From the NCBI RefSeq assembly GCF_024519435.1, contig NZ_JALJRZ010000001.1:806001-870000 (forward strand): a DNA stretch of 64,000 nucleotides, in the 5' to 3' direction. Position 1 is the first letter of the stretch; each line of letters opens with the position of its first letter. Source of the DNA: Terrabacter sp. Ter38. GTDB taxonomy: Bacteria > Actinomycetota > Actinomycetes > Actinomycetales > Dermatophilaceae. Under the pieces are notes generated by a model. It was not told the DNA's origin. It worked only from the letters and a program-made list of their open reading frames with translations, and searched no databases. Positions 9,639-18,411 of the stretch are shown piece by piece. Both the position numbers and the translations under genes were made by a program.

Positions 9639-9854
9639 CTACTTGGCGGCCTTCTTGCCGTAACGGGCCTCGAACCGGGCCACGCGGCCACCGGTGTCGA
9701 GGATCTTCTGCTTGCCCGTGTAGAACGGGTGGCACTGCGAGCAGACGTCGGCAGAGATCTTGCCGGAGGTCTCGGTGCTGCGCGTGACGAACGTGCTGCC
9801 ACAGGTGCAGGTCACCGTGGTCTCGACGTACTCGGGGTGAAGGTCCTTCTTCAA
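9639..9854 (-). CDS. rpmE: 50S ribosomal protein L31 (zinc-binding type)
   Basis: Ribosomal protein of 71 residues starting [19 protein letters not shown]. Four cysteines (C16, C18, C38, C41; CTC and CSQC) form the zinc site of the C+ L31 type. The TTG at 9854 is chosen because it is the family N-terminus and has AAGGAG six bases upstream (spacer ACAACG). A longer in-frame extension to 10046 has no family counterpart. First gene after the rho-rpmE interruption; its promoter should lie in 9855-10095, shared divergently with the lipoprotein gene. Confidence 0.95.
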
Positions 9855-10095
9855 CGTTGTCTCCTTGAGGTAGTCGGCCGGGTCGGTGTCATCGCTGCTC
9901 ACGCTGGGGAGCTGCTCTCCCGTGAACCGGTCCAAAGGAAGAGTGTGCCAGAAAGGCGCACCTCCTCCCAAACGCACGGGAGGCCCTCGGCATTCCCCGC
10001 GCGACCCCTCGGCGGCCGGCGCGACGTGCATCGATCCGGTCCCCACAGGTGTCTTTCATCGACGACGGGGGGGGACCGGCGACAGGGAGGCAGTC

Positions 10096-11079
10096 ATGAT
10101 GGTCAGGGCCAGAGTGGCCCGCCACCGCGCGGCGGTGGTCGGAGCGGTCGCCGTGCTGCTCGCGGCCACGGCCTGCTCGGGCGCGGACTGCGCCTTCGAC
10201 GACTGTCCCGACGTGCCTGCCGCCGAGGCCGGACGCCTCACCGGCACCGACCCGTCCGGCGCGGTCCGTTGGACGACGACGGTGGCCGACCTGCTCTCGG
10301 AGCCCCCGGTCGTCAGCAACGGGCACGTCCTCGTCGTCGGCTGTCACGCCACCCACGTCGTCGACGTCGCCTCCGGTGCCGTCTCGACGCCGTCCGACCT
10401 CGTCCAGGTCATCGGCGTCGTCCAGAGGTATGCCGTCGGGACACCTGCCGAGGGCGACGCGATCGTGGCCGCCGAGCGGCTCGACGGCGCCGTGGGCGGC
10501 TGGTCGTGGCAGGGGTCGCCGCCGGACGAGGACGCAGACCTGGGCTACCGCTCGTCGGCCGTCGTCACCCGCGGCGGGATCGTGGGGGTGCGGGGTCAGT
10601 CGCTCGTCGCCTGGTCACCCGGGTCCGACTCATGGGACTCCGTCGAGGTCCCGCTCCCCGTCGGGGCCTGGCGCCTGCAGCGCCTCGTGGCTGCCGACGA
10701 GACGCACGTCGTCGTCCCCGGCTCCGACGGCTCGGTCCTCGGCGTGGACCTCGGCTCCCGCTCGGTGACCTGGCGCTCGCTCCCGACCCGCCCCGCCGCC
10801 CCCGCAGACGTCAGCGTGCGGCGCGTGGGCCGCGACGTGCAGGTCGAGGTGTGGTACCCGCGGACGACGGTTGCGGCGATCACCGGGGAGGCCGTCTGGG
10901 ACACCGAGCGGTGGTCCCTCGACGCACGCACGGGCGCGGCCCGCTCACCCCGGACGACGAGCACCGGGCCGCGGTCGACGACGCGCAGGGCGCCGTCCCC
11001 GACGGTGCTGCACGACCCGTCGACCGGATGGACGGTCACGCTGGGACTGCGCGAGCGCCCGAGAGGTGGTTGCTTCTGA
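10096..11079 (+). CDS. putative lipoprotein with PQQ-like beta-propeller repeats
   Basis: A 327-residue exported protein of unknown function. The N-terminus is a lipoprotein signal (MMVRARVARHRAAVVGAVAVL, then a lipobox-like AATAC with Cys at about 33). The body has repeated Trp/Asp/Gly strands (RWTTTVADLLSEPPVVSNG, VLGVDLGSRSVTWRSLP) typical of PQQ-like or WD-type propellers. ATG at 10096 is preferred, with GGGAGG five bases upstream. It is the only rightward gene in the first 25 kb and converges on the histidine kinase gene. A bulged hairpin at 11081-11103 may end its transcript. Confidence 0.7.
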   Translation: MMVRARVARHRAAVVGAVAVLLAATACSGADCAFDDCPDVPAAEAGRLTGTDPSGAVRWTTTVADLLSEPPVVSNGHVLVVGCHATHVVDVASGAVSTPSDLVQVIGVVQRYAVGTPAEGDAIVAAERLDGAVGGWSWQGSPPDEDADLGYRSSAVVTRGGIVGVRGQSLVAWSPGSDSWDSVEVPLPVGAWRLQRLVAADETHVVVPGSDGSVLGVDLGSRSVTWRSLPTRPAAPADVSVRRVGRDVQVEVWYPRTTVAAITGEAVWDTERWSLDARTGAARSPRTTSTGPRSTTRRAPSPTVLHDPSTGWTVTLGLRERPRGGCF

Positions 11080-11140
11080 ACGCCCGGCAGCCACGCCGGG
11101 GCGTCGCCGGCCCGCTACCAGGACGCGACTCGAGCCCGTT

Positions 11141-13297
11141 TCACCGCCGCGCCGGGACGGCAGCCGGCTGGGCGACGGGGAGCACGACCTGCATCGTGGT
11201 CCCCTCCCCCTCGACCGACGCGATGACGAGCTCGCCGCCGTGGCCCTCGACGATGGCACGCACGATCGCGAGTCCGAGGCCGGTGCCGGGGATGGCCGCG
11301 GCCGTGGCGTTGCCGGCGCGGAAGAAACGCTCCGACAGGCGCGCGAGGTCGCTGGCCGGGATGCCGATGCCGGTGTCGTGCACGGAAATGATCGTGGAGT
11401 CACCGGAGCGCTCGGCCGACAGCAGCACCTGGCCGCCCTCGGGGGTGAACTTCACGGCGTTGGAGCCGAGGTTGATCAGCGCCCGCTCCACCTGTCCTCG
11501 GTCGACCCGGACGACGAGGTCGTCGGGCACGTCGGTGCAGAGCAGCTGCACTCCCCCGGCGGCGGCCACCGGCTCCATCGTCTCGGTGACCGTGCGCAGG
11601 AGGTCACGGACGGCAACCTCCTCGGACACTGCCTGCAGGCCGCTGATCTCGATCTTGTTGAGGACGAGGAGGTCCTCGATGAGCCCGCGCAGCCGGGTCG
11701 CGTTGCGCCCGATGATGTCGAGGGCGACGTGCTGGCCGTCGGAGACCTCGCCGAAGTCGCCATCGACGAGCAGCTCGAGGTAGCCGCTGATCGAGGTCAG
11801 CGGGGTGCGCAGCTCGTGGCTGACGGTCGCCATGAAGTCGGTCTTCTGACGGTCGAGCTCGGTGAGGCGTCGCACCTGCTCGTCCTGCATCTGCGACAGG
11901 CGCAGGGCAACGATCGACTGGGCGGCGATGGCCGCGCACTGCTGCGCGGCCTGGATCTCGTGGCGGTGCCAGCGGCGCGGCGCGCTCACCATCATCACCG
12001 ACAGGATGCCGAGGCCGCGGCCGCCCGTGCCGACCGGGAGCATGAGCAGGGACCGGGCCCCGGTGGCGCGGTGGAAGGCGCGGGAACGCTCGTCGTCGTA
12101 GGCCTGGTGGGCCAGCAGGTCCCCGAGGTCGAAGAAGCCCACGTCGCGGCGCAGCTCGTCGTTGACGGCACCCACCTGCTGGGCGAGCGAGCGCGGCAGC
12201 GGCGGCAGGTCGGGCAGGTCGTCGGTGTGCCACTGGAGGCGGTCCTCGATCGTCTGTCCGTCGTCGCCCAGCGTGTAGAGGAGCACGCGGTCGGCGCCCA
12301 GACCCGCACCGAGCTTGGTGGTGACCCGCTGCAGCGCCTCGTGGACGTCGACGGCCGACCGCGCGCCCCGGCCGACGTCGAGGACGAGCTCCTGCATCTC
12401 GAGCACCGCGGCCTGCTGGTCGACGAGGCGGGCGTTGGCGCGCGTCAGGTCGTTGAAGTCGCGCGCGAGCATGCGGACCTCGAGCGCGCCCTCCTCCTGG
12501 TTGGCCATCGCGATGACGTCCTCCTCGGCCTGCCGGCGCACGACCTCACGCAGTCGGGCGAGCGGGAGGCCGACCGCACGGTCCATGCCGAAGCCCGCCG
12601 CGATCAGCACGAGGACGACGACGGCCGCGACGGCGATGATGACGCCCGACGTGATGCCGGTCGCCTCGCGCGACTCGACCCGGGCGGTGTCGCGCTGGGA
12701 GCGGATGGCTTCCTCGAGCGCGCCGTTGGCGCTCTGGAAGGCGGCGTATGCCGTCTCGACCCGCGTGCGCTGCTGCGCCTCGGGGGTGGTCGGTGCGGTG
12801 CCGGTGCTTGCCGGCGCGGGGGTGCTGGGCGGCGGTCCCGTCGGGGTCGCTGTCGGAGGACCGCTGGGGACGTTCGCGAGCGAGGCCTCGGCGGCGGTGT
12901 ACCAGCCCTCCACGGCGGTGCGCTGCGCCGCGACGAGCGGTGCGAACCTGGCCCGGTCCTCGGCTGCGAGCTCCAGGTGCTGCGTGCCCGTCTCGACGTC
13001 GGCCAGCTCCTGCTCGATCGGGGCGCGCAGGGAGAGCGGGTCGAGGGGGGCCGGGACGCCGACGACCTTCTCGCGCCAGGCGCCCTCGGCGCGGGTCATG
13101 TCGAGCAGCACCGCACTGTTGGCCTCGCGCGCCGGGCCCAGCGCGAGCGTCAGGGCGCGCACCGAGGCTCCCTGCGAGTGGATCGTGGCCACCGAGATGA
13201 TGGCGCCGATCGGCACGAGGACGACGAGGATGCCGATGAGCAGCCGGATCTGGCTGCCGACGGAACGCCTCGAGACGACCGGCAGGCCGCCCGTCAC
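11141..13297 (-). CDS. membrane sensor histidine kinase (GAF-HisKA-HATPase)
   Basis: 718 residues. Order: membrane helix about 19-39, extracytoplasmic domain with a Pro/Thr/Ser-rich stretch (about 142-170), helix about 213-236, HAMP-like linker, GAF domain (about 275-435), HisKA with phosphoacceptor H494 in ATVSHELRTPL, then HATPase_c with N-box NLGSNAVKFTPEGG, DTGIGIP and GTGLGLAIV. GTG at 13297 overlaps the glycosyltransferase TGA (GTGA). Last gene of the RR-HEAT-GT2-HK operon. Its partner is presumably the stand-alone receiver encoded first in the operon. The signal is unknown; an envelope or polysaccharide cue is inferred from context. Confidence 0.9.
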   Translation of the reverse strand: MTGGLPVVSRRSVGSQIRLLIGILVVLVPIGAIISVATIHSQGASVRALTLALGPAREANSAVLLDMTRAEGAWREKVVGVPAPLDPLSLRAPIEQELADVETGTQHLELAAEDRARFAPLVAAQRTAVEGWYTAAEASLANVPSGPPTATPTGPPPSTPAPASTGTAPTTPEAQQRTRVETAYAAFQSANGALEEAIRSQRDTARVESREATGITSGVIIAVAAVVVLVLIAAGFGMDRAVGLPLARLREVVRRQAEEDVIAMANQEEGALEVRMLARDFNDLTRANARLVDQQAAVLEMQELVLDVGRGARSAVDVHEALQRVTTKLGAGLGADRVLLYTLGDDGQTIEDRLQWHTDDLPDLPPLPRSLAQQVGAVNDELRRDVGFFDLGDLLAHQAYDDERSRAFHRATGARSLLMLPVGTGGRGLGILSVMMVSAPRRWHRHEIQAAQQCAAIAAQSIVALRLSQMQDEQVRRLTELDRQKTDFMATVSHELRTPLTSISGYLELLVDGDFGEVSDGQHVALDIIGRNATRLRGLIEDLLVLNKIEISGLQAVSEEVAVRDLLRTVTETMEPVAAAGGVQLLCTDVPDDLVVRVDRGQVERALINLGSNAVKFTPEGGQVLLSAERSGDSTIISVHDTGIGIPASDLARLSERFFRAGNATAAAIPGTGLGLAIVRAIVEGHGGELVIASVEGEGTTMQVVLPVAQPAAVPARR

Positions 13298-14742
13298 GCC
13301 GGGTCCTCGTCGAAGCCCGTGCGAGTCATGACTCCCCAGACGTGCTTCTTCCCGCGCAGGCTCGACCACCACCCCTCGAGGCGCCACCACACGGTGGCCT
13401 GGCGGTAGCCGATGTTCTCGAGGATCGAGGCCGCGATGGTCTGCCAGACGGCACGCCACCGGTCGTGCTTGTGGAAGGCCCACTCGTCGACGACCATCGC
13501 AGCCAGCGTGACGAGCACGGCATACCCGTAGGCGAGCACGAGGAAGAGGATCGCGAAGGGCACGTTGACGATGCCGAGCGCCAGCGCGAGCGGCACGATG
13601 ATGATCCCGAAGAGCTCGAGCAGCGGTGCGAACAGCTCGAAGAGCCAGTAGTAGGGCAGCGCGAGCCAGCCGATGCGGCCGTACTTCGGGCGGAAGAGCA
13701 TCGAGCGGTAGGCCCAGAGCGTCTCCCAGAGACCCCGGTGCCACCGGCGGCGCTGGTTGCGCAGCACCTTCGCGGTGACCGGGACCTCGGTCCAGGACAC
13801 CGGCTCGGGCACGAACTCGATGGAGTAGTCGCGGCCCTCGTCGCGCAGTCGCTTGTGGATGCGCATGACGAGCTCGAAGTCCTCGCCGATGCTGTTCGGG
13901 TCGAGACCGCCGACCTCGACGACGACGTCGCGCCGGAAGAGACCGAAGGCCCCGCTGATGAGGATGAGACCGCCGAGGCGCGACCACCCGGTGCGGCCGA
14001 GGAGGAAGGCCCGGAGGTACTCGACGAGCTGGATGCGGGGGATCCACGTCTGCGGCATCTCGACGCGCACGATGCGGCCCGACACCACCCGGCTGCCGTT
14101 GACCGGCCGGATGGCGCCACCGGTCGCGACCATGCGCGTGGGGTCGTCGGCGAAAGGACGGGTGACGTGGAGCAGGCCGTCGGGCTCGAGGATGGAGTCC
14201 CCGTCGATCATGGCGACGAGCGGCTCGCTCGCGGCGTTGATCGCGACGTTGATCGCCTCCGAGCGGCCGGAGTTCTCCTTGCGGACGACGACGAGGCGCG
14301 TGCGGCCGTCGCGCGGGACGAAGATGCCGAGCACCTTGGCCCGGATCGGGATCTCGTGCGGCAGCTCGCGCGGGACCTGCACGAGGTCGAAGGCCTCCGC
14401 GAGGCGGGCGAAGGTCTGGTCGCTGCTGCCGTCGTCGACGACGACGACCTCGTGCCGCGGGTAGCGCAGCGTGAGGAACGACTTGACCGCCATGACGATG
14501 CCGGCCTCCTCGTTGTAGGCCGGGACGAGGAGCGACACCCCGGGGGCCAGGCCCGCTCCCTGCCACGTGACCGCCGTCGACCGACGACGCTGCTGGGCGC
14601 GGAACCCGAGGTAGGCCAGCACGATGAGCACGAGCAGCGAGGTGTTGATGAGGATGAAGTAGACGATGATCGGCACCGCGGTGACGTCCATGCTCCACAG
14701 GACGAAGGACCGCAGCCCCTCGACGAAGCCGTCCCAGCTCAT
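13294..14742 (-). CDS. processive GT2 membrane glycosyltransferase
   Basis: 482-residue beta-glycosyltransferase of the cellulose/PNAG/hyaluronan-synthase type. One helix at about 22-46 is followed by a cytosolic GT-A domain with LLVPAYNEEA, VVDDGSSD (D103/D104), MIDGDS (D180/D182), SIGEDFEL (E287/D288 as catalytic-base region) and the processivity motif QRRRW (330-334). Several C-terminal helices lie at about 360-440. ATG at 14742 overlaps the HEAT-protein TGA. It probably polymerises and exports a polysaccharide; the sugar cannot be told. Embedded in an operon with signalling genes, so regulated synthesis (biofilm or capsule) is a reasonable inference. No separate PilZ gene is seen. Confidence 0.88.
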   Translation of the reverse strand: MSWDGFVEGLRSFVLWSMDVTAVPIIVYFILINTSLLVLIVLAYLGFRAQQRRRSTAVTWQGAGLAPGVSLLVPAYNEEAGIVMAVKSFLTLRYPRHEVVVVDDGSSDQTFARLAEAFDLVQVPRELPHEIPIRAKVLGIFVPRDGRTRLVVVRKENSGRSEAINVAINAASEPLVAMIDGDSILEPDGLLHVTRPFADDPTRMVATGGAIRPVNGSRVVSGRIVRVEMPQTWIPRIQLVEYLRAFLLGRTGWSRLGGLILISGAFGLFRRDVVVEVGGLDPNSIGEDFELVMRIHKRLRDEGRDYSIEFVPEPVSWTEVPVTAKVLRNQRRRWHRGLWETLWAYRSMLFRPKYGRIGWLALPYYWLFELFAPLLELFGIIIVPLALALGIVNVPFAILFLVLAYGYAVLVTLAAMVVDEWAFHKHDRWRAVWQTIAASILENIGYRQATVWWRLEGWWSSLRGKKHVWGVMTRTGFDEDPA

Positions 14743-15797
14743 GCAGATGCCTTCTGCAGGCTTGCCAGCAGGCGCGCGGAGCGCACGGCGGGGTCGTTCT
14801 CGTGGCCCGCCAAGGCGTCGCGGCCGCCGGGACCCATCGACAGCAGGGCCGTCGCGGCGAGCTCGGCCAGGCGCGGGTCCGAGTCGTCGAGCAGGACGGC
14901 GAGCGCGGGGATCGCCTCCGCCTCACCGAGGTCGCCGAGGGCGATGACGCAGGCCCGGCGCAGCTCCAGCGGCTCGGAGGGCACCGTGTGGCGCACGAGG
15001 ATGCCGACGTCCTCACGTCGGCCGAGGCGGCCGATGGCCGATGCGCTCGTCTCGCGGACCGTCAGGTCGGGGTCGGCGTCGAGCAGTCCACGCAGCTCCG
15101 GGAGCCCACGGGTGAAGCTGCGTTCGCCGCTGAGGTGGGCGGCGACCATGCGGGTGCGGGCGTTGGGGTCGGCCATCCCGTCGCGCAGCACCTCGGAGAT
15201 GCCGACCCCCATCGACTGCAGGGCCTCGGCTGCCGTCGCCGCAGGCAGCCCGCGGTCGGGCGCACCGATCGCGGCCAGCACCGGCCCGGCGGCCGCAGGG
15301 TCGCCGATGAGCCCGAGGGCGTAGGCGGCGCTGTTGCGCACCTCGACCGCCTCGTCGCCCAGAGCATCGATGAGGAGCGGGACCGTCTGTCCGGCACGCG
15401 CGAGCCCGAGCAGCTGGGCGGCCCGGGCTCGCTTGACGGCGGAACGGCTCGACATCTCCGCCACGGCGGCGTCGACCGCGCCATGGACCTCGAGCACGTG
15501 GACGAGCTGCTCGGCGGGGACGCCGCGGATCTTGGTGAGCAGCTCGACGATGTTGCGATCGAGCACGGCGCGCGAGACGCCGGCCGCCCACGTCAGCTGC
15601 TCTGCGGCCGCACCGTCGTCGTCCTCGCCCGAGGCCACCGTGATGAGGGGCCGCCGGAGCGGAGAGAGCAGCATCTCGTCGCGCTGGGTGCGGCTGTGCC
15701 GTCGCGCGCGGACCGCGACGACGGCGAGGATGAGCAACAGGCACCCGCCGAGGATGACGACCGTGGCACCGACGAGCAGCGCCCCGCCGATGATCAC
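14739..15797 (-). CDS. membrane-anchored HEAT-repeat protein
   Basis: 352 residues: an N-terminal membrane helix (about 5-28, ALLVGATVVILGGCLLLILAV), a basic stop-transfer RARRHSRTQR, a linker, then about seven HEAT/PBS-lyase-type helical repeats to the C-terminus (e.g. LIDALGDEAVEVRNSAAYALG, TVRETSASAIGRLGRRED, VIALGDLGEAEAIPALAVLL). Such solenoids are protein-interaction scaffolds. GTG at 15797 lies 13 bases after the response-regulator stop, and its stop overlaps the glycosyltransferase start (ATGA). Placed between a receiver and a GT2, it may transmit the signal to the synthase; this is inference. Confidence 0.82.
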   Translation of the reverse strand: MIIGGALLVGATVVILGGCLLLILAVVAVRARRHSRTQRDEMLLSPLRRPLITVASGEDDDGAAAEQLTWAAGVSRAVLDRNIVELLTKIRGVPAEQLVHVLEVHGAVDAAVAEMSSRSAVKRARAAQLLGLARAGQTVPLLIDALGDEAVEVRNSAAYALGLIGDPAAAGPVLAAIGAPDRGLPAATAAEALQSMGVGISEVLRDGMADPNARTRMVAAHLSGERSFTRGLPELRGLLDADPDLTVRETSASAIGRLGRREDVGILVRHTVPSEPLELRRACVIALGDLGEAEAIPALAVLLDDSDPRLAELAATALLSMGPGGRDALAGHENDPAVRSARLLASLQKASA

Positions 15798-15810
15798 GAC
15801 GGCCCGCCCC

Positions 15811-16212
15811 TCATCGGGCCCGGGCGAGCATGCCGTTGACGCGATGGAGCAGCTCGCGCGGGCTGAACGGCTTGATGACGTAGTCGTCGGCCCCGACCGC
15901 GAAACCGGTGTCGACGTCGGAGTCGCGCGACTTGGCGCTGAGCAGCAGCACCGGGACCGTGGAGAACTCGCTCTCGCGGATCTTGCGGAGGACGTCGATG
16001 CCGGACAGGCCGGGCATCATGACGTCGAGCACCGCCAGCTGCGGCGGGTTGGCTGCGAATGCCTCCCACGCGCTGATGCCGTCGGAAACAGCCTCGACGG
16101 CATACCCCGCCTGGGTCAGCTTGAACTCGACGAGGTCTCGGATGTCTGCGTCGTCATCGGCCACGAGGACACGGACGGGGCTGGCATCAGGGTCGCCGGC
16201 GGGCGCAGACAT
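15811..16212 (-). CDS. stand-alone response regulator receiver
   Basis: 133-residue CheY-like single-domain regulator with no output domain. Key residues: acidic pair D20/D21 in VADDDADIRD, phosphoacceptor D63 in AVLDVMMPGLSG, S92 in LLLSAKS and K114 in DDYVIKPFSPREL. ATG at 16212 with GGAG upstream. First gene of the RR-HEAT-GT2-HK operon. Lacking a DNA-binding domain, it presumably acts by protein contact, possibly with the adjacent HEAT protein. Confidence 0.92.
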   Translation of the reverse strand: MSAPAGDPDASPVRVLVADDDADIRDLVEFKLTQAGYAVEAVSDGISAWEAFAANPPQLAVLDVMMPGLSGIDVLRKIRESEFSTVPVLLLSAKSRDSDVDTGFAVGADDYVIKPFSPRELLHRVNGMLARAR

Positions 16213-16224
16213 GGTTCTCCATGG

Positions 16225-16251
16225 TGGATTCGGGGTGGTGAATCCATTTTA
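16225..16251 (-). promoter_or_regulatory. candidate promoter and operator of the RR-HEAT-GT2-HK operon
   Basis: An AT-rich patch between the rho terminator and the receiver gene contains a -10-like TAAAAT (16251-16246 on the minus strand). Abutting it downstream is an inverted repeat TGGATTC-N8-GAATCCA (16225-16246). No convincing -35 is seen. The repeat sits where a repressor would block initiation. Both elements are seen in the sequence; function is inferred. Confidence 0.45.
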
Positions 16252-16286
16252 GGAACATTTGGCCCGAATAGCCCATGAAACGCCGA

Positions 16287-16318
16287 ACGGGGACGGCGCC
16301 GATTGGCGCCGTCCCCGT
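16287..16318 (-). terminator. rho gene terminator hairpin
   Basis: A perfect 14-bp stem (16287-16300 with 16305-16318, core ACGGGGACGGCGCC) with a GATT loop, about 12 bases past the rho stop. On the minus strand it is followed by a short TTT-containing stretch. It separates rho from the downstream receiver-kinase operon, supporting an independent promoter there. Confidence 0.8.
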
Positions 16319-16329
16319 CCGGTGGTCGG

Positions 16330-18411
16330 TCAGGACTCGTCGTCGAGCTTGGAGCCGCTCGTCTGCTGGACCTGGGTGAGGAACTCGTAGTTCGTCCGCG
16401 TCTTCTTGAGGCGGTCGATGAGCAGCTCGATGGCCTGCTGCGCGTCGAGGCCGCCGAGGACCCTGCGTAGCTTCCACATGATCTTCAGCTCCTCGCTCGC
16501 GAGGAGGATCTCCTCGCGGCGCGTGCCCGAGCTGTTGATGTCGACGGCCGGGAAGATCCGGCGGTTGGCCAGGTCGCGGCTCAGGCGCAGCTCCATGTTG
16601 CCGGTGCCCTTGAACTCCTCGAAGATCACCTCGTCCATCTTCGAGCCGGTCTCGACGAGGGCCGTCGCGAGGATCGTGAGCGAGCCGCCGTTCTCGATGT
16701 TGCGCGCGGCCCCGAAGAACTTCTTCGGCGGGTAGAGCGCAGCCGAGTCGACACCACCGGAGAGGATCCGGCCGCTCGCCGGCGCGGCGAGGTTGTAGGC
16801 ACGGCCCAGCTTGGTGATCGAGTCGAGGAGCACGACGACGTCGTGCCCGAGCTCGACGAGGCGCTTGGCGCGCTCGATGGCGAGCTCGGCGACCGTCGTG
16901 TGGTCCTCGGCCGGCCGGTCGAAGGTCGAGGAGATGACCTCGCCCTTGACGGCGCGCTGCATGTCGGTGACCTCCTCCGGGCGCTCGTCGACGAGGACGA
17001 CCATGAGGTGGCACTCCGGGTTGTTCGTCGTGATCGCGTTGGCGAGGGTCTGCATGATCATCGTCTTGCCGGCCTTGGCCGGGGCGACGATGAGGCCGCG
17101 CTGGCCCTTGCCGATGGGCGCGACGAGATCGATGATCCGCGTCGTCAGGACGTTGGGCTCGGTCTCGAGGCGCAGCCGCTGCTGCGGGTAGAGCGGCGTC
17201 AGCTTGCCGAAGTCGACGCGCTTGGCGGCCTCCTCCGGCGTCTGGCCGTTGACCGTGTCGAGGCGGACGAGCGCGTTGAACTTCTGGCGTCCGACGTTGC
17301 CCGAGGGCTGCTCGCCGTCGCGCAGCGCCTTGACGGCTCCGGTGACCGCGTCGCCCTTGCGCAGACCGTTCTTCTTGACCATGCCCAGCGGCACGTAGAC
17401 GTCGTTCGGACCGGCGAGGTAGCCGGACGTGCGGACGAAGGCGTAGTTGTCGAGGACGTCGAGGATGCCGCCGACGGGGACGAGCACGTCATCGTCGCCG
17501 ACCTGCAGGTCGGCGTCGTTCCAGTCCTGCCCACCCTCACGCCCGCGGCCACGCTTGCGGTCCCGGCTGCGCTGGCGGTTGCGGCTGCGACGGCTGCCAC
17601 CCTCGTCGTCGTACGGCGACTGCTGACCACGGCCCTGGTCGTTCACGTCGCCCTGCTGGCGGTCCTGGCGGTCCTGCTGACGGTCGCCCTGCTGGCGGTC
17701 CTGGCGGTCCTGCTGACGGTCGCCCTGCTGACGGTCGCCCTGCTGACGCGACTGCTGACGGTCGCCCTGCTGACGGTCGCCCTGCTGACGATCCTGCTGA
17801 CGCGACTGCTGACGGTCGCCCTGCTGACGGTCGCCCTGCTGACCGCGGTCGGACTGCTGTCCGCGACTCCGGTCACCCTGACGACCCTCGTGGTCGTCAC
17901 CGTCGGACGCCTGCTGGTCGCCGGCGTCGGCCCGCTCGGACGACGTGGGGTCCTGGGCGTCCGCACGCGACGCACGGTTCTCACGGGAGCCGCGGGCACC
18001 TCGCTCGGCACGCGGGGCCCGGTCCCCGGACGGGACCTCTTCCCGGCTCTGTGCGCGATCGTCGACGGGCGCCTGGCCGGCCGACTCGGTGGACGTCGTG
18101 GTGGAGGACTCGGTAGTCGCCTCGGCCTTCGTGGCGGAGCCCGCCGGGCGGCTGACCCGGCGCGAGGCACGGGCCGGGGCGGCCTCCGTGGCGGCCTCGG
18201 CGTCGGAGCCCGTCGGCAACGACGAGGGCGCCGACGAGGGCGTCGACGGAGCTGAGGAGCCGCCCGACTGGCGCGCCTTGATCGCTTCGACGAGGTCGCT
18301 CTTGCGCATCTTCGTCGTGCCGGTGATGCCCATCGACGACGCGACGCCCTTGAGCTCGTCCAGCTTCATGGCCGACAGGCCAGAGAGCGGACGGGTGGTT
18401 GTTTCTGACAC
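16330..18411 (-). CDS. rho: transcription termination factor Rho with long N-terminal insert
   Basis: Hexameric RNA helicase ending transcription. 693 residues versus about 420 in E. coli. Order: Rho_N SAP-like domain (about 8-45, LSAMKLDELKGVASSMGI), a 250-residue low-complexity insert, cold-shock RNA-binding domain (DVLVPVGGILDVLDNYAFVR), then the ATPase with Walker A VAPAKAGKTMI, Walker B LMVVLVDERPEEV and the Q/R loops. The insert carries many GDRQQ/DRQQ units. GTG at 18411 is chosen for its family-like SETTTRPLSGLSAMK N-terminus and AAGGA six bases upstream. Long N-terminal inserts are known for actinobacterial Rho; the Gln/Arg/Asp repeat is extreme here. Confidence 0.95.
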   Translation of the reverse strand: MSETTTRPLSGLSAMKLDELKGVASSMGITGTTKMRKSDLVEAIKARQSGGSSAPSTPSSAPSSLPTGSDAEAATEAAPARASRRVSRPAGSATKAEATTESSTTTSTESAGQAPVDDRAQSREEVPSGDRAPRAERGARGSRENRASRADAQDPTSSERADAGDQQASDGDDHEGRQGDRSRGQQSDRGQQGDRQQGDRQQSRQQDRQQGDRQQGDRQQSRQQGDRQQGDRQQDRQDRQQGDRQQDRQDRQQGDVNDQGRGQQSPYDDEGGSRRSRNRQRSRDRKRGRGREGGQDWNDADLQVGDDDVLVPVGGILDVLDNYAFVRTSGYLAGPNDVYVPLGMVKKNGLRKGDAVTGAVKALRDGEQPSGNVGRQKFNALVRLDTVNGQTPEEAAKRVDFGKLTPLYPQQRLRLETEPNVLTTRIIDLVAPIGKGQRGLIVAPAKAGKTMIMQTLANAITTNNPECHLMVVLVDERPEEVTDMQRAVKGEVISSTFDRPAEDHTTVAELAIERAKRLVELGHDVVVLLDSITKLGRAYNLAAPASGRILSGGVDSAALYPPKKFFGAARNIENGGSLTILATALVETGSKMDEVIFEEFKGTGNMELRLSRDLANRRIFPAVDINSSGTRREEILLASEELKIMWKLRRVLGGLDAQQAIELLIDRLKKTRTNYEFLTQVQQTSGSKLDDES
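17648..17870. repeat. degenerate 15/18-bp tandem repeats encoding GDRQQ units in rho
   Basis: About 220 bases made of recurring CTGCTGACGGTCGCC-type units (some with an extra CTGGCGGTC), encoding alternating GDRQQ, SRQQ and DRQDRQQ on the minus strand. All copies keep frame. They also create a long uninterrupted frame on the other strand, which is a shadow. Confidence 0.85.

Follow-up and report, generated by a model that had tools for sequence, protein, structure and literature searches.

How does a response regulator act when it consists of a receiver and nothing else, and its operon encodes a glycan synthase? The question is posed by a locus of Terrabacter sp. Ter38 (contig NZ_JALJRZ010000001.1, forward-strand positions 806,001 to 870,000; the window, hereafter, is this whole 64,000-nucleotide stretch), where four minus-strand genes between rho and rpmE encode a stand-alone receiver (REC), a HEAT-repeat protein (HEAT), a family-2 glycosyltransferase (GT2) and a histidine kinase (HK). 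An earlier note, made from this DNA alone, had pointed out the four co-oriented genes, and gene calls and domain searches confirm them. We lean, with modest confidence, towards reading the operon as a two-component-controlled, membrane-bound polysaccharide synthase in which HEAT and GT2 would be gated by docked phospho-REC. The four genes are:

15811..16212, minus strand: REC, stand-alone receiver, 133 aa, PhoB-like, without output domain (PF00072 E 5.9e-28, NCBIfam, alignments)
14739..15797, minus strand: HEAT-repeat protein, 352 aa, N-terminal transmembrane (TM) helix at 11-29 (PF13646 E 2.8e-25, hydropathy)
13294..14742, minus strand: processive-type GT2, 482 aa (Pfam, NCBIfam, alignment A1, PDB profile search)
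11141..13297, minus strand: membrane histidine kinase HK, 718 aa, with a GTG start inside the GTGA overlap (Pfam, hydropathy)

HEAT and GT2 overlap by 4 nt (ATGA) and GT2 and HK by 4 nt (GTGA), as the earlier note had described; it had extended such joins to REC and HEAT, which are in fact 13 nt apart.

HEAT and GT2 occur as one unit in at least 12 phyla

By its sequence, GT2 is predicted to be a processive-type polysaccharide synthase, and the motif set supports this assignment, which the earlier note had also made. Besides matches to PF13641, PF00535 and PF13632, it carries D, DxD, (T/G)ED and QxxRW together with TM helices, and D104, D180, D182, E287-D288, Q330-R331 and R333-W334 (the motif QRRRW spans 330-334) are invariant across 19 aligned relatives. 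Its best NCBIfam match is the poly-GlcNAc synthase PgaC/IcaA (TIGR03937), which shares this core (D, DxD, ED, QxxRW and membrane helices); the score of 125.9 bits lies under the cut-off of 422.3, and a HEAT partner adjoins the window GT2. Processive GT2 motifs are likewise common to GT2 and the PilZ-bearing cellulose synthase BcsA, but the score is 50.7 bits against a cut-off of 699.1 (TIGR03030), and GT2 has no PilZ match at E<=0.01; the cut-offs of CelA and NodC are not reached either. The GT2 profile aligns over positions 21-339 to a solved hyaluronan synthase (7sp6, E 3.6e-12), a remote relative: class I hyaluronan synthases work as single polypeptides, whereas the window GT2 has HEAT and REC partners. 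In HEAT, the single N-terminal TM helix is followed by basic residues (hydropathy), so that by the positive-inside rule the repeats should be cytoplasmic; the closest solved sequences are alphaRep/HEAT solenoids.

Named genomes were scanned with the GT2 alignment and two peptide patterns, and 80 of 379 confirmed relatives were kept, so the phylum spread given here sets a minimum and does not measure prevalence, and the score gap applies to the retained loci. Among the loci examined, scores to the GT2 profile (A1) split into >=341 and <=204; we define the clade by a score above 340, which the window GT2 reaches while sitting inside the profile itself. Clade members occur in at least 12 phyla: Actinomycetota, Bacillota, Pseudomonadota, Bacteroidota, Spirochaetota, Acidobacteriota, Gemmatimonadota, Myxococcota, Thermodesulfobacteriota, Elusimicrobiota, Omnitrophota and Fidelibacterota; environmental carriers include Geodermatophilus pulveris, Stutzerimonas kunmingensis and Brevibacillus fortis. 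Counted with the respective centre included, matches were found in 8/149 genomes of a Spirochaetota sample (E<=1e-50), 12/295 of the phylum of L074 (E<=1e-70) and 9/249 of the phylum of L073, a Stutzerimonas locus (E<=1e-90). E. coli YaiP, encoded near yaiO, was considered as a member and rejected (56.5 bits); it falls outside the clade.

Across these phyla GT2 and HEAT are found together. Gene calls in relatives came from a codon-usage caller, and several HEAT genes that it missed were recovered by six-frame search. Of 82 clade loci examined, 81 are testable, since L064 starts at GT2, and HEAT is directly upstream of GT2 or fused to it in 81/81: 72 by position and 9 as fusions with the HEAT match further N-terminal, three of these being weak (15-19 bits). 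A second HEAT profile was built up by iteration from genes found before GT2s, which makes its counts partly circular; a profile from actinobacterial HEATs only matches 61/82 clade loci. Among the lower-scoring GT2 loci, HEAT was found at 2/43, namely L112, which is cut by a contig end, and L110, a divergent long-branch copy from Tenericutes, placed inside the clade by a quick tree. Fourteen open reading frames fuse HEAT to GT2 (L068, L070, L074, L084, L132, L133, L140-L147; L084 runs off its contig), and a further fusion, L148, was reported with a stop. The fusion N-halves match the stand-alone HEAT profile in 13/13 cases tested, with E values from 1.3e-26 to 6.7e-6 against a set of 13 sequences. 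Comparing the profiles of N-halves and HEAT gave E values of 2.4e-5 and 4.9e-5 (76% and 68% probability), with null results for both controls. Adjacency and natural fusions make the HEAT-GT2 partnership well supported, and the earlier idea of HEAT as a mere coupler is refined to that of a near-obligate synthase partner.

A receiver usually accompanies the HEAT-GT2 pair

REC matches PF00072 and no other domain, which bears out the earlier description of a stand-alone receiver and leaves it without a DNA-binding output; its best NCBIfam matches are RpaB/PhoB-type regulators, of which the receiver parts only are covered. Alignments show a complete active site (acidic pair D19/D20, phospho-acceptor D63, K114). 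HK combines a GAF domain with HisKA (PF00512, E 1.6e-18) and HATPase_c (PF02518, E 9.2e-25) and has two TM helices, at 19-37 and 218-236, so that the operon holds both hallmarks of a two-component pair: a HisKA and HATPase_c kinase, and a receiver with acidic pair, phospho-Asp and Lys.

The association of receivers with the clade is pronounced: 63/82 clade loci, against 1/43 other GT2 loci, have a REC no more than 4.5 kb upstream or 1.2 kb downstream. REC stands directly before HEAT in 43/82 (40 by distance, and L074, L161 and L172 by gene order). REC carriers vary in build: REC may be alone, joined to another receiver (L051, L052, L053), combined with Hpt, REC and GGDEF (L045, L060, L065) or with ODP and GGDEF, some relatives thus fusing REC to GGDEF; in the multi-domain carriers before HEAT, REC is the last domain. 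The same holds at fusion loci: in 13/13 checked, REC forms the end of the gene immediately upstream. There the phospho-acceptor is Glu in 12/13 (L068, L070, L084, L160, L161, L167-L173; L074 keeps Asp), and Glu is also found in L052, L067 and L179. We read such a Glu as a phosphomimic, although it could equally be the sign of a degenerate receiver kept for structure.

Two side observations concern these upstream genes. Before fusions, the Glu receiver mostly follows, in the same protein, a GGDEF domain that lacks its motif. In 8/11 scanned upstream genes of fusions (L074 included) the N terminus holds an ODP domain, which may provide an oxygen-linked input.

Within Actinomycetota we compared 20 loci, 15 chosen by GT2, 3 by HEAT and 2 belonging to the window's genus. 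The earlier note had named failure of the four genes to co-occur outside this genus as what would refute it, and that refutation fails: GT2, HEAT and REC lie on one strand in 18/18 loci outside the genus, and HK follows downstream in 12/18. L040 has an opposite-strand gene between REC and HEAT. HEAT was found in 14/38 genomes in total (9/9 of the genus, own included; 0/15 of other genera of the family; 5/14 others of the order), and GT2 (E<=1e-60) in 16/296 genomes of the class, own included, two of them from further genera of the family. As a separate observation, three loci of one family (L035:7303-7650, L037:1973-2314, L038:12660-13001) carry before REC a second short receiver-like protein (113-115 aa) that keeps Asp and Lys and differs after the phosphosite.

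How the receiver may control the synthase

We propose the following sequence of events, in which phosphorylation, REC-HEAT contact, gating and polymer synthesis are all steps that we infer from sequence. HK would sense a cue and phosphorylate REC at D63, as the intact domains and residues suggest. Having no output domain, REC would act by protein contact, most likely on the cytoplasmic HEAT solenoid; we infer this docking because the genes are linked and because proteins of different build end in a receiver just ahead of HEAT. HEAT would serve as the dedicated partner of GT2, and the REC-HEAT contact would gate GT2, which, to judge from its motifs and from the neighbours in relatives, may extend and export a polymer. 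CheY and Spo0F are familiar stand-alone receivers that act through protein contact; REC likewise lacks an output domain, and its proposed target differs in being the HEAT partner of a glycan synthase.

Several observations weigh against this reading. In 20/63 loci REC is not directly before HEAT: at 17 it is further upstream, with other sequence or genes intervening, and at 3 it is downstream only. No REC is in range in 19/82 clade loci, among which L055, L058, L064 and L085 are near a contig end, while a Firmicutes group lacks REC with its upstream genes visible (L075, L076, L078-L080, L082, L083, L174, L175): REC is usual for the clade, not universal. The kinase, moreover, follows in just those 12 of the 18 actinobacterial loci. 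The 82 clade loci are also not independent, three being of the window's genus and two near-identical Stutzerimonas loci. Finally, in G014, a genome of a sister genus, rho, REC, HK and rpmE are contiguous (L216, 1687-5691): REC and HK both have open reading frames and retain their key motifs, and no HEAT or GT2 match lies at this rho-rpmE site.

G014 and the REC-less loci are what one would expect if the HEAT-GT2 synthase complex were constitutively active and the adjacent REC-HK pair signalled to some other target, an explanation that we consider unlikely without thinking it negligible. In G013, also of a sister genus, what comes after REC is an HK split over separate open stretches, with no HEAT-GT2 (L215, 378-4171); the genome is a draft of 280 contigs, which leaves room for sequence errors. 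Neither genome has a clade GT2: a single partial match was found in G014 (113.6 bits) and nothing at E<=1e-30 in G013. Both arrangements can also be read as remnants, however: HEAT and GT2 seem to have been lost together, while REC-HK can persist, and remnants after synthase loss are the likely origin of the rho-REC-HK-rpmE order. A constitutive complex would further leave unaccounted for the enrichment of REC near clade GT2s over the lower-scoring loci, and the fact that proteins of different architecture carry it as their final domain, immediately ahead of HEAT.

Going back to REC as a regulator docked on HEAT, it is possible, and we suggest it tentatively, that REC-HEAT is a general docking port gating a polysaccharide synthase, into which sensors ending in a receiver plug. 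The port would be used by a lone, kinase-driven REC in Actinomycetota and by Hpt/REC/GGDEF proteins with terminal REC elsewhere; at the HEAT-GT2 fusions (Spirochaetota, Bacillota) it would hold an Asp-to-Glu phosphomimic receiver, and upstream ODP and motif-less GGDEF domains would take control. If true, glycan synthesis would be widely controlled at the post-translational level by a route that runs parallel to PilZ/c-di-GMP.

Polysaccharide-type neighbours in relatives

Could GT2, scaffolded by HEAT, instead be a single-sugar transferase acting on a lipid or a cell-wall acceptor? This would fit the window, where no separate export partner is apparent beside GT2, and the scores of GT2 under the NCBIfam cut-offs of PgaC, CelA and NodC; we nevertheless rate it improbable given the invariant D, DxD, ED and QxxRW, PgaC/IcaA as best match, the alignment to hyaluronan synthase and the genes found beside some relatives. 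Among the scanned loci, YaiO barrels, some with TPRs, lie beside HEAT-GT2 in L061, L062, L066, L071, L072 and L176, TPRs without YaiO in L052, L063 and L163, a LysM protein in L057 and a UDP-sugar dehydrogenase in L067, and VTC, DUF4956 and CotH genes precede HEAT-GT2 in L082. The placement of these barrels suggests that YaiO proteins have a role in glycan export (barrel coordinates include L062:6138-7505, L066:10440-11726, L072:7156-7932 and L176:8410-9168).

The L082 neighbours recall a known cluster. According to PMC7112168, Gram-positive Pel genes are accompanied by CotH, polyphosphate polymerase, DUF4956 and DUF4832, and the first three kinds also precede HEAT-GT2 in L082; the Pel cluster differs in its synthase genes, pelDEADAFG, and in a PelD that binds c-di-GMP (PMC7112168). 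Among titles and abstract openings of the open-access PMC literature, PMC7112168 was the only paper to combine CotH, VTC and DUF4956; those listed on YaiO/YaiP held nothing on a REC-HEAT-GT2 system, and no description of such a system was found there. The earlier note, too, knew of no described system of this composition; the system is wider than it knew.

A family of ~700 aa was also observed beside HEAT-GT2 in Firmicutes (L051:4676-6799, L067:5537-7756, L082:5414-7672 and seven more, A7). It has an N-terminal hydrophobic stretch and a weak GH2 match (E 0.0055), and no Pfam match in the three members scanned (L051, L067, L075); we take its SEYG motif to resemble clan GH-A hydrolases.

Relation to c-di-GMP

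Least probable, and to our mind very improbable, is that the module is basically a c-di-GMP system whose REC is a relic of GGDEF-REC regulators, the window form being reduced: GGDEF proteins with a terminal REC do precede HEAT in L045, L060, L065 and most fusion loci scanned, L060 carries a canonical GGEEF, and GGDEF occurs in 33/36 other named genomes with a clade GT2, whereas the window's own genome (100% complete by the tool) gave 0 GGDEF and 0 PilZ matches in a search for these two families, the GG[DE][DE]F motif is absent from the fusion-linked upstream proteins (13/13) as well as from L045 and L065, and GGDEF was not detected in the clade genomes of L056, L062 and L064, whose completeness is not given. 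As the window genome shows no GGDEF or PilZ, control need not run through c-di-GMP; the earlier proposal of control in place of PilZ/c-di-GMP suits this genome, and the GGDEF count of the other genomes speaks against extending it to the clade.

Where post-translational control of synthase-dependent exopolysaccharides is known, it mostly involves c-di-GMP. Conservation of a REC-HEAT-GT2 unit across many phyla, and in a genome where neither GGDEF nor PilZ was detected, would reveal another general route. If true, it would also assign a role to many stand-alone receivers and HEAT genes that now have none and would hint at matrix polymers not yet studied; the natural Asp-to-Glu receivers would be ready-made test variants.

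Site history and flanking genes

On the minus strand the genes run lysA, hom, thrC, thrB, rho, REC, HEAT, GT2, HK, rpmE, prfA, prmC (flank names are our reading, rho by Pfam), and the G+C content of the window is 71.7%. The features around the operon are:

16330..18405, minus strand: rho, upstream flank, outside the system (PF00006, PF07497, PF07498)
16289..16316, minus strand: GC-rich inverted repeat between rho and REC, without T tract (seen by eye)
10096..11079, plus strand: putative lipoprotein gene, outside the system, tail-to-tail with HK
9639..9902, minus strand: rpmE, downstream flank, outside the system (gene call; relatives in 22/23 genomes)

The rho-rpmE site is shared by 7/18 loci (L031, L032, L034, L036, L042, L043, L044), and L047 lies between rho and prfA, rpmE not being called there. 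In a quick tree of GT2, with several forks open, the window GT2 is placed among Actinomycetota and the site recurs in three actinobacterial sub-clades, so that it is probably ancestral, with later losses and moves. A recent insertion was judged less likely on the same ground. The earlier interpretation stands as to a processive-type synthase, a receiver without DNA-binding output and linkage far outside the genus, and is probably wrong in calling the operon inserted.

Of the rho terminator that it placed before the operon, the GC-rich inverted repeat is there, while a terminator scan reported zero minus-strand sites behind rho and no T-tailed terminator. The lipoprotein gene was considered as a system part and rejected: neither Pfam nor NCBIfam gives a match at E<=0.01, and it was found at the same site in 4/7 same-genus loci (G003, G005, G007, G008; not G001, G004, G006), and probably does not belong to the system. 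Described earlier as divergent, it is convergent with HK and the operon, and divergent from rpmE only.

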